A stretch of DNA of 64,000 nucleotides, taken from the NCBI RefSeq assembly GCF_900163965.1, contig NZ_FULE01000027.1, positions 1-64,000 on the forward strand, given 5' to 3'. Both the position numbers and the translations under genes were made by a program. Below the pieces are notes generated by a model, which was not told the DNA's origin, did no database searches, and worked only from the letters and a program-made list of their open reading frames with translations. This stretch comes from Vibrio ruber DSM 16370. GTDB lineage: Bacteria > Pseudomonadota > Gammaproteobacteria > Enterobacterales > Vibrionaceae. Below, one piece after another: positions 28,669-32,162 of the stretch (the stretch's first letter is position 1; each line of letters begins with the position of its first letter).

Positions 28669-29821
<1,153 letters not shown>

Positions 29822-30091
29822 CTAGGGGCTGTTGATCTTTCGTGATGTTTTTTGCAGCAATTTGTCGTGCATTTAGTCAAGGCAGGTCATGTGAAGTGTA
29901 GCGATCTACATGAACCATGACCTAACGCTGGATAAATGAGCGACAAATGCTGCCCAGAGGGTTCATCTGAACGTGTCTTGCTCTTTGTTGCGGGTCATTT
30001 GCTTAGGATAGCTAAGCGGCATGCCCCGCGCCGCGATCAATACCCGTTCAGATTGAACAAAATTCAACCACGAAAGGTCAACAACCCCTAG
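29822..30091. mobile_element. MITE-like element with CTAG flanks and two compound hairpins
   Basis: A 262-bp body (29826-30087) bounded by 19-bp imperfect terminal inverted repeats: left GGGCTGTTGATCTTTCGTG (29826-29844), right, read inward, GGGTTGTTGACCTTTCGTG (30087-30069), 17 of 19 identical. Each end is flanked by CTAG, consistent with a 4-bp YTAR target duplication as made by IS5-group transposases. It contains no open frame. Inside are two long imperfect hairpins: 29854-29953 (GCAGCA...TGCTGC outer arm, AGGTCATG/CATGACCT and TGTAG/CTACA inside) and 29961-30058 (GTTCATCTGAACG outer arm, GCTTAG/CTAAGC inside). It is non-autonomous and probably present elsewhere in the genome. Confidence 0.8.
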
Positions 30092-30292
30092 GTAAAAGTT
30101 CCGAATATTGCTGTGCTTTTGTTGCTTTGTTGAAGGGATAGTACAGTTTTTAATGATGTTTTAGTTCAATATCCTGAATTTGTTATTTTTAATTGTATTT
30201 TGATTTACTTTTTATGGAAAATACAAATGAATCGACTATTCTTTTGTTATAAAAATGTAAAATCATGCTAATTCTTGGTAGAGGAATTGAAT

Positions 30293-30949
30293 ATGATTCA
30301 TCAACATGAGAATACACTGCATATTACTCATCTGAGTGATACGGCGATCCATCAACTGGCACCTTCGTTCCGACAACTCCCTCATACAACCCATGCCGAC
30401 GGGCAATACCGGCTCAGACGTTATTCGGTGGTTCAGTTCGTCGGTGGCAAGGTGGTTGAAGTGGATAAACACGATTTCACGCAATCCAGTCAATATAACC
30501 CGTTTCAGGGGGATATTAAGCGTCAGTTTGAACCCGTGTTGCAAGAAACACTGAAGAGTGAGGGTTTACGGGAGATGTGCGAGTTATTTGTCGAAGCCAA
30601 TGGTTTACCGGACGGACAAATTATCGATATTCATCAAATGCGCATAGCATCGGTGTTCGATGAAACAATGGTGTCCCCGGAAGGGGTTCATCAGGACGGT
30701 TACGACTATATCGCGATGATCGGGATTGATCGTCATAATATTGTCGGCGGAGAACTGATGCTTTATCAGGATAATCATGCCGCTCCGTTTTTCCGTAAGG
30801 TGTTGGAGGATGGTGAAGTGGCGATGGTGGCCGATAGTGCGCTCTGGCATAACGCGACCCCGATCCGTGCGATAGAACATGGTGAAGAAGGGCATATGGA
30901 TGTGTTTGTCCTTACGGCGAAGGATGGTAACCATGAATTTCACGCCTGA
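30293..30949 (+). CDS. 2-oxoglutarate/Fe(II)-dependent dioxygenase family protein
   Basis: 218 residues from ATG 30293 (GAGGAA is 7 bp upstream). The iron triad is visible as H133-x-D135 in EGVHQDGYDYIAMIGID and H186 in SALWHNATPIR, with R192 a likely 2-oxoglutarate ligand. The HQDG context and overall length fit the 2OG-Fe dioxygenase family (PF10014), whose characterised members hydroxylate free amino acids such as isoleucine. The substrate here is unknown. Its last 17 bp overlap the start of a PLP enzyme gene, so the two are translated together and probably act in one pathway. Confidence 0.82.
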   Translation: MIHQHENTLHITHLSDTAIHQLAPSFRQLPHTTHADGQYRLRRYSVVQFVGGKVVEVDKHDFTQSSQYNPFQGDIKRQFEPVLQETLKSEGLREMCELFVEANGLPDGQIIDIHQMRIASVFDETMVSPEGVHQDGYDYIAMIGIDRHNIVGGELMLYQDNHAAPFFRKVLEDGEVAMVADSALWHNATPIRAIEHGEEGHMDVFVLTAKDGNHEFHA

Positions 30950-32162
30950 GGCTGCCCGCCAGCAATTTCCGGTATTCCGGCAGGATGAATCAGCATTACC
31001 GCTGTTCTTTGACGGGCCGGGCGGAAGCCAAGTCCCGGCGATTGTCGGAGAGCAAATCACACAGTATCTTTCCGGCGGGACTGCAAATGTGGGCGGGTAT
31101 TACCCGACGAGTTTTCACACCAGTCGGCTGGTGACGCAGGCGAGAGAAGCGGGTCAGGCATTGCTGAATGCCCCGGCACCGGAGAATATTGTGTTCGGGG
31201 CAAATATGACCACGCTGACGTTCCATCTGAGCCGGATTATCAGTCGCGAATGGCAAAGTGGGGATGAAGTGATTGTCACTGAGCTGGATCATTATGCCAA
31301 TGTGTCGAGCTGGCAGCAGGCAGCCACTGACCGAGGAGCCGTGATCCGTCAGGCCCGGGTGGATGAGAATCAATGTTCACTGGATGTTGAGCATCTCCTC
31401 TCTCTCATCGGTGAACGAACGCGGCTGGTGGCCGTGACCTATGCGTCGAATACCACGGGAGCGATTGTTGATATCCGGCGCATCATCGAAGCTGCGCATC
31501 GGGTCGGGGCATTGGTCTATGTTGATGCGGTTCATTTTGCCCCGCATCAGTTAATTGATGTTCAGGCATTGGATTGTGATTTCCTTGTCTGTTCCGCGTA
31601 TAAATTTTATGGTCCCCATATCGGTATTTTGTACATTGCGCCACGCTGGCTGGCGCATTTTATGCCATATAAAGTTGAGCCGGCGCCAAATGCCGGCCCG
31701 GGGCGTTATGAAACGGGGACACTGAATTTTGAAGGTTTGGCTGGTGTGATCGGTGCCATTGAATATCTTGCTCAATGGGGCAACGCGGAGGACTCACTTA
31801 GAATGAGGCTGGCTGAGAGCTTCACACAGTATCAACAGCATGAGCAACGGTTAGCTGCGTTGTTCTTATCACTGACAGATACGTTGACTTCAGCACAGTT
31901 GTACGGCGCTGATGTCGCTGACAGTGCGGTAAGAACCCCGACGTTTGCGCTGCGTTTTGCACATCATACCCCGGCGGTAATTGCCAAAGCTTTGGGAGAG
32001 CAGAATATTTGTGTCTGGCATGGCCACTTTTATGCTTTGGGGTTGGTGCGACGCTTAGGACTTGAAAGTCATGGTGTGCTGCGTATCGGAATGATGCACT
32101 ACAACACTGAAGCGGAAATTCATCATTTATTTGAACATTTGCGTCGTCTGGAAGAAGCTTAA
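30933..32162 (+). CDS. Cysteine desulfurase-like class V aminotransferase family protein
   Basis: 409 residues from ATG 30933 (AAGGA nearby, overlapping the dioxygenase gene). PLP fold type I, class V: N-terminal FFDGPGGSQVP, E117-L-D-H120 stacking histidine, VDAVHFAPH with D198, and the Schiff-base lysine K224 in CSAYKFYGPHIG. It fits the cysteine desulfurase-like family TIGR01976. In true group II desulfurases the segment RTGHHC carries the catalytic cysteine; the matching stretch here is WHGHFYAL, with tyrosine in that place, so it is unlikely to be a cysteine desulfurase. It may instead eliminate or transaminate an amino acid made by the adjacent dioxygenase; that is inference. Confidence 0.8.
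   Translation: MNFTPEAARQQFPVFRQDESALPLFFDGPGGSQVPAIVGEQITQYLSGGTANVGGYYPTSFHTSRLVTQAREAGQALLNAPAPENIVFGANMTTLTFHLSRIISREWQSGDEVIVTELDHYANVSSWQQAATDRGAVIRQARVDENQCSLDVEHLLSLIGERTRLVAVTYASNTTGAIVDIRRIIEAAHRVGALVYVDAVHFAPHQLIDVQALDCDFLVCSAYKFYGPHIGILYIAPRWLAHFMPYKVEPAPNAGPGRYETGTLNFEGLAGVIGAIEYLAQWGNAEDSLRMRLAESFTQYQQHEQRLAALFLSLTDTLTSAQLYGADVADSAVRTPTFALRFAHHTPAVIAKALGEQNICVWHGHFYALGLVRRLGLESHGVLRIGMMHYNTEAEIHHLFEHLRRLEEA

Follow-up and report, generated by a model that had tools for sequence, protein, structure and literature searches.

The window analyzed here, a stretch of 64,000 nucleotides of Vibrio ruber DSM 16370 (contig NZ_FULE01000027.1), carries 2 overlapping plus-strand genes that encode a PF10014 2-oxoglutarate/Fe(II) (2OG-Fe(II)) dioxygenase and a class V pyridoxal phosphate (PLP) enzyme of the TIGR01976 (VC1184) family (Table 1). 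The overlap of 17 bp had been claimed by a first-pass annotation made from the letters of the window, and both open reading frames and the overlapping positions are confirmed. An alternative in-frame ATG at 30879 would yield a PLP protein of 427 aa; the start at 30933 is preferred on the basis of an alignment to relatives. The pair is preceded by a gap of 667 bp (29626..30292), and the genes that flank it lie on the minus strand, with trxB-like and cydDC-like genes on one side and a DUF2797-like gene on the other (names read from the translations).

Table 1. Features of the dioxygenase/PLP locus, in positions of the window
Feature	Position	Strand	Basis
Weak copy of the direct repeat TGTRAA-N5-TGTTAA	30245..30261	+	10/12 positions matched
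PF10014 2OG-Fe(II) dioxygenase gene, 218 aa	30293..30949	+	ORF, ATG to stop; Pfam match
H133-x-D135, iron ligands of the dioxygenase	30689..30697	+	Invariant in 52/52 rows
H186, iron ligand of the dioxygenase	30848..30850	+	Invariant in 52/52 rows
AAGGA, ribosome-binding-site-like, of the PLP gene, within the dioxygenase gene	30920..30924	+	Sequence
Class V PLP enzyme gene, TIGR01976 (VC1184) family, 409 aa	30933..32162	+	ORF; model match
Overlap of dioxygenase and PLP genes, 17 bp	30933..30949	+	Sequence
K224, PLP Schiff-base lysine	31602..31604	+	66/66 rows
GHFY (364-367); Y367 replaces the SufS catalytic Cys	32022..32033	+	Alignment to group II desulfurase GHHC

Upstream of the dioxygenase gene, the direct repeat TGTRAA-N5-TGTTAA is found at 10 or more of its 12 positions in 16 of 18 Vibrionaceae regions, mostly about 55 bp before the start codon. 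For this count, 21 regions were reduced to 18 by dropping three duplicates, and A, G, or T was accepted as the fourth base. Shuffled controls gave a mean of 3.8 and a maximum of 9 of the 18 regions, an enrichment that is optimistic because the consensus was drawn from those very sequences. The repeat resembles an ArcA box. An ArcA-like site would suit an oxygen-using enzyme, and the copy in the window is a weak one.

The dioxygenase scores 185.5 bits against PF10014, where the gathering cut-off is 23.1, and its HxD...H triad is invariant in 34/34 rows of the paired clade and in 18/18 other PF10014 rows. This alignment leaves out L185-L188, which have very long branches, and L148, which is short; among its positions, F26, F99, P165, and F205 are typical of the paired clade. 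An AlphaFold2 model of the dioxygenase (mean pLDDT 85.9) matches the fold of HrmJ, BelL, Mpe_A2762, 8w8h, and IDO, with HrmJ and BelL as the top matches. The first-pass annotation had proposed a PF10014-like iron triad made of H133, D135, and H186; its numbers are exact, and both the family score and the fold agree with it.

Several known systems resemble the dioxygenase, each with different surroundings. HrmJ (hormaomycin) and BelL (belactosin) belong to PF10014 as well, but come from natural-product clusters, where C4 of a nitro amino acid is the site of the reaction. Isoleucine dioxygenase (IDO, Hil operon) has the Pfam family, metal triad, and fold of the window enzyme, and members of this family act at C4 of free amino acids; however, the core partner in the Hil operon is a short-chain dehydrogenase (AR/HilC), whereas the partner in the window is a class V PLP enzyme. 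Some members of PF10014 are described as converting free L-Leu, L-Ile, and L-Thr into 4-hydroxy amino acids with Fe(II) and 2-oxoglutarate, and a PLP enzyme listed for certain Hil operons belongs to PF00291, which has another fold (PMC3684760).

The PLP enzyme reaches 510 bits against TIGR01976 (am_tr_V_VC1184; curated cut-off 352.35), a hypothetical equivalog that NCBI labels "cysteine desulfurase-like protein". By contrast, it falls below the cut-offs of both SufS (206.6 vs 475.1) and CsdA (145.8 vs 493.6). K224, H120, D198, and H229 are invariant in 66/66 PLP rows, and position 367 is Tyr in 64 of these, His in 2, and Cys in none. All 31 paired rows have Tyr at this position, and a search of the same 31 rows for an invariant Cys column found none, the commonest being C148 (26/31). 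The class V lysine had thus been numbered exactly in the first-pass annotation, and the alignment confirms the Tyr it had read in place of the desulfurase Cys (GHFY for GHHC). Its doubt that the reaction is a desulfuration is supported by the absence of this Cys, for which there is no invariant replacement. The group II desulfurases SufS and CsdA have the fold, the PLP lysine, and many PLP contacts in common with the window enzyme, but possess the catalytic Cys that it lacks. We therefore reject a plain cysteine desulfurase, i.e. the catalytic Cys is missing and neither the SufS nor the CsdA cut-off is reached.

An AlphaFold2 model of the PLP enzyme (mean pLDDT 91.4) has Rv3778c as its best structural match (Z 53.4, rmsd 1.6, 393 aligned), with SufS structures at a Z of about 51, and in a second ranking SufS-type desulfurases come out on top, with a TM of about 0.9. 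Going by this predicted structure, the fold rankings do not reveal the reaction of the enzyme. The SufS fold speaks for a Cys-independent beta-lyase that acts on an oxidized S or Se amino acid (i.e. a desulfinase or a selenocysteine lyase), with the dioxygenase making or accompanying its substrate. SufS mutants of the catalytic Cys keep desulfinase and selenocysteine lyase activity, and IDO oxidizes methionine sulfur, both of which point the same way. So does a transcriptome list in which vc1184, the namesake of TIGR01976, is assigned to iron-sulfur cluster formation, a label given without a test (PMC8694189). Against it stand the Tyr that occupies the Cys position throughout the paired rows, the wide margins by which the SufS and CsdA cut-offs are missed, and the presence of four further strong class V genes in the host genome, and we consider a lyase of this kind quite unlikely.

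By sequence, the PLP enzyme has FGM3 of Fusarium as its closest solved relative (2.7e-51 with a single sequence and 1.8e-96 with a profile), which is only modestly ahead of SufS in the profile search (1.5e-87); UstD is also a profile match (2.1e-61). In the fusaoctaxin cluster, the P450 Fgm1 is reported to produce 4(R)-hydroxy-L-Arg, from which Fgm3 cleaves the Cbeta-Cgamma bond to give L-Ala (PMC10967133), and this cleavage of gamma-hydroxy-Arg has been termed retro-aldol (PMC10367076). Deletion of fgm1, fgm2, or fgm3 is described as leaving fusaoctaxin A unaffected (PMC6389888), and fgm1-fgm3 have been assigned to guanidinoacetate, which serves the other fusaoctaxin as its starter (PMC10967133). 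FGM1/FGM3 follow the hydroxylate-then-cleave logic that we propose for the window pair, but with a P450 hydroxylase in a fungal cluster, where the window pair is bacterial and has a PF10014 dioxygenase.

At 32% identity, FGM3 and the window PLP enzyme have D119, H120, N173, D198, H205, K224, H229, and R384 (window numbering) in common. They differ in residues of the likely pocket, as judged by alignment and not from a complex: FGM3 has the motifs DNAGGSQ and DGVAYAPH where the window enzyme has DGPGGSQ and DAVHFAPH, and Ala, His, and Phe in place of H201, K247, and Y367, with a gap in the alignment near K247. FGM3 (residues 5-397 used) scores 329 bits, under the TIGR01976 cut-off of 352. FGM3 entries are absent from the best 50 fold matches listed in either ranking, an absence that carries no weight. 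Nine bacterial genes that are 40-47% identical to FGM3 retain most of its signature and have other neighbors. A direct FGM3 orthologue acting on 4-hydroxy-Arg is not supported for the window, as the FGM3-signature genes are of another type, and since the window type forms another branch, its substrate may differ from hydroxyarginine.

UstD is a further desulfurase-like PLP enzyme with gamma-hydroxy amino acid chemistry, and it runs in the C-C forming direction. It is reported to build gamma-hydroxy amino acids via an enamine, which gives L-Ala when protonated (PMC11976203). A window enzyme that joins C-C bonds as UstD does, with the dioxygenase altering the product or the precursor, would fit the profile match to UstD and the reversibility of aldol chemistry. 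However, no biosynthetic neighbors were seen in the window or in two annotated paired loci, and we see only a slim chance for this direction, which we regard as highly improbable.

The PLP enzyme might also be a cyclase or eliminase that removes the hydroxyl added by the dioxygenase, be it through cyclization or beta/gamma elimination, and leaves a modified, uncleaved amino acid, in the manner of VioC/VioD or GntC. VioD and GntC are members of another PLP subfamily, and the matches of the window enzyme to their models are weak (2.2e-8 and 3.9e-7, respectively), well short of its TIGR01976 and FGM3 matches. These matches point to a cyclase or eliminase all the same, as does the report that GntC and Fgm3 differ in their action on one substrate, gamma-hydroxy-Arg (PMC10367076). 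On balance, we judge it unlikely.

Whether the 2 genes belong together can be read from their distribution. Among the matches listed for 150 Vibrionaceae genomes, 116 genomes have PF10014 and 113 have a homologue of the PLP enzyme (at least 44% identity); PF10014 is found in all 113, and three genomes have PF10014 alone. A total of 116 PLP places were counted, with SufS-like rows of 33-37% identity and one piece each of the broken genes of G013 and G084 excluded, and 111 of these places, again among the matches listed, are on the same strand as a PF10014 gene and directly 3' of it. The domain-edge spacing seen in the window recurs in 71 of these 111 adjacent pairs. The five nonadjacent places comprise second copies in G016 and G006, and the PLP genes of G059, G081, and G051, whose PF10014 gene is on another contig. 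The latter three genomes (L048-L050) belong to one genus, and the dioxygenase that lies apart from their PLP gene is of the paired type. In 2 loci, L084 (G084:C24) and L085 (G013:C46), a frame change or stop interrupts the PLP gene beside an intact dioxygenase, through either decay or assembly error. Another genome has a paired-clade dioxygenase alone (L082, G071:C16) and no close PLP homologue.

The same association is found across 394 genomes of the order, with PLP genes called at an E of 1e-75 or better and adjacency defined as co-oriented and within 300 bp. PF10014 occurs in 60/60 PLP-bearing genomes vs 18/334 PLP-free genomes (Fisher P = 4e-55, kinship ignored), counts that are not independent because the genomes are related, the 60 representing 12 genera and 8 families. 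The dioxygenase lies just upstream of the PLP gene in 53 of the 60, from six families. The other seven genomes come from two further families, one (four genomes) in which the 2 genes have opposite orientations and are separated by about 3.6-4.7 kb, and one (three genomes) in which they are on different contigs. Chance neighbors are rejected on these figures, i.e. 111/116 adjacent in the family and 60/60 co-occurring in the order. The first-pass annotation had named 2 findings that would speak against its reading, genes that usually occur separately and a catalytic Cys displaced to another position. Within the order, neither was found: the genes co-occur in all 60 genomes, and the paired rows have no invariant replacement Cys. 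Functional coupling of the dioxygenase and the PLP enzyme is, in our assessment, very likely.

Outside the order, the picture depends on the phylum. A scan of one genome per species (84,980 species), run with an alignment whose lead sequence is a cyanobacterial member, was followed through its best 80 loci, among which PF10014 is the most frequent neighbor on the PLP strand. It adjoins the PLP gene in 12 of these 80 (ten cyanobacteria, Methylomicrobium, where the genes are convergent, and Pseudoalteromonas). The genomes of 50 of the 68 unpaired loci were searched for PF10014 anywhere, and 19 carry it. Specifically, 15 of 16 cyanobacterial genomes have a paired-type dioxygenase elsewhere, whereas 30 of 34 noncyanobacterial genomes (Chloroflexota, Acidobacteriota, and others), many of them MAGs of unknown completeness, are without PF10014. 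In the remaining four of the 34, the PF10014 sequences form very long branches outside the named groups. The dioxygenase is therefore a near-obligate companion within the order as sampled and among cyanobacteria, but not in other groups: outside Gammaproteobacteria and Cyanobacteria, the PLP homologues are usually alone in the genomes searched. The interpretation given in the first-pass annotation is thus supported in part.

The abundance of PLP homologues without a dioxygenase would agree with 2 enzymes that are linked but not consecutive, i.e. that serve one pathway or condition under shared regulation and hand over no product. By contrast, the overlap-like spacing is conserved, and the partner is retained even where the genes are unlinked, which makes such an arrangement very unlikely in our view.

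In the sequence trees, the paired-type dioxygenases are set apart as a clade. A final tree of 68 rows, built without L185-L188, L148, and L204-L207 and with a small outside sample from which IDO is absent, has a branch with support 100/99 between 49 rows and 19 other PF10014 rows; in an initial quick tree the support was 98. The 49 rows comprise 31 paired and 15 unlinked cyanobacterial dioxygenases, one from the same region as its PLP gene, and two whose genomes have no close PLP homologue. The 15 unlinked cyanobacterial sequences and that of Methylomicrobium make up a sub-branch in a clade with the paired cyanobacterial ones (27 rows, SH-aLRT 95). When the four very divergent rows L204-L207 are included, again without L185-L188, the paired groups meet at an unresolved root. 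Paired and unpaired genes interleave more in the PLP tree, with 10 label changes in 66 hand-chosen rows (31 paired and 35 unpaired, to which FGM3 was added).

Gene neighborhoods were also considered where the pair is broken up. Around 14 of the unlinked cyanobacterial dioxygenases, no neighbor with a link to the chemistry was seen; a gene on the opposite strand recurs in 9/14 and a same-strand repeat-protein gene in 6/14. Unpaired PLP genes among the best 80 distant loci have no partner common to all, and their recurrent neighbor sets are bound to clades (8 and 6 loci in Acidobacteria and 6 loci in Nostocales). A homoserine dehydrogenase gene is found upstream, on the strand of the PLP gene, in six of 18 Acidobacteriota loci (L115, L123, L130, L132, L133, and L136; one was Pfam-scanned), which make up the set of 6 just mentioned, and homoserine is a gamma-hydroxy amino acid.

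Among 18 annotated loci around family members (2 paired and 16 unpaired, chosen among 60 of 150 records), an aldehyde dehydrogenase, dihydropyrimidinase, agmatinase, or creatininase is encoded near the PLP gene in 11 of the 16 unpaired ones, and none of these four enzymes in the other 5/16. Relatives of FGM3 on PLSDB plasmids (L224, L226-L232, and L045) have genes for amino acid ABC transporters, dihydropyrimidinase, agmatinase, creatininase, SDR, or aldehyde dehydrogenase nearby, and in 6/10 annotated loci of such relatives an amino acid ABC transporter, the PLP gene, and dihydropyrimidinase occur together. For example, the Rhizobium CIAT894 locus includes a creatininase, an agmatinase, and two SDR genes (PLP enzyme 34% identical to FGM3), that of a Phyllobacterium from Vicia an agmatinase (39%), and that of a Rhizobium from Vavilovia an agmatinase and an aldehyde dehydrogenase (32%). 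One gene order, namely aldehyde dehydrogenase, M20 hydrolase, cupin, PLP enzyme, amidohydrolase, ABC transporters, and Lrp, is common to L043 (Rhizobium etli bv. mimosae) and L223 (Rhizobium CB3060, from Leucaena). Both strains are symbionts of mimosine-producing plants (Mimosa and Leucaena), and this cluster may have to do with mimosine or a plant amino acid akin to it.

The rhizobial and other plasmid clusters are possibly a catabolic form of the FGM pathway that acts on gamma-hydroxyarginine or a similar compound. Gamma-hydroxyarginine would be cleaved to alanine and guanidinoacetaldehyde, and the latter would be converted via glycocyamidine to guanidinoacetate and finally to glycine and urea. 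Such a breakdown would explain several genes of the plasmid clusters, and these clusters support an aldehyde-releasing reaction for the wider PLP family.

For the window pair, we propose that both genes are co-translated and form a two-step pathway. By likeness to the PF10014 family, the dioxygenase would consume O2 and 2-oxoglutarate and place a hydroxyl on C4 (Cgamma) of a free L-amino acid. The PLP enzyme, by likeness to FGM3, would bind the gamma-hydroxy amino acid on K224, form the equivalent of a Cbeta carbanion or enamine, and cut the Cbeta-Cgamma bond by retro-aldol; protonation would then give L-alanine (or 2-aminobutyrate if Cbeta is methylated), and the side chain would depart as an aldehyde or ketone. 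The two steps are compatible: the dioxygenase is related to C4 hydroxylases, and the enzyme encoded beside it has a relative that cuts adjacent to a hydroxyl at C4. We give a little better than an even chance to this sequence of events, i.e. C4 hydroxylation of a free L-amino acid followed by a Cbeta-Cgamma cut that yields alanine, or a homologue of it, together with a carbonyl compound. Counted against it are the differing pocket residues, the modest lead over SufS, the fold rankings headed by SufS-type desulfurases and Rv3778c, the FGM3 score under the TIGR01976 cut-off, the 30/34 PLP-bearing genomes without PF10014, the 7/60 pairs that are not adjacent, and the iron-sulfur label of vc1184. 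A PF00171 search of the genome, which found no aldehyde dehydrogenase on the contig of the window, also weighs against it.

The logic of a hydroxylase combined with a PLP lyase is already known from Fusarium, and its bacterial version with a dioxygenase appears unreported; in the literature searched, no treatment of the dioxygenase/PLP pair was found, as judged by titles and abstract openings among the matches listed. We see about an even chance that the pair represents a widespread, unrecognized route of side-chain trimming in Gammaproteobacteria and Cyanobacteria, which would provide a function for the window-type branch of TIGR01976. A partner related to hydroxylases of free amino acids turns the open annotation of this family into an assay of 2 proteins. 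If the proposal is true, Vibrionaceae, their relatives, and cyanobacteria would have an oxygen-dependent amino acid route that cleaves side chains, and their PLP enzymes would be a source of new lyases or aldolases for C-C bonds in gamma-hydroxy amino acids.
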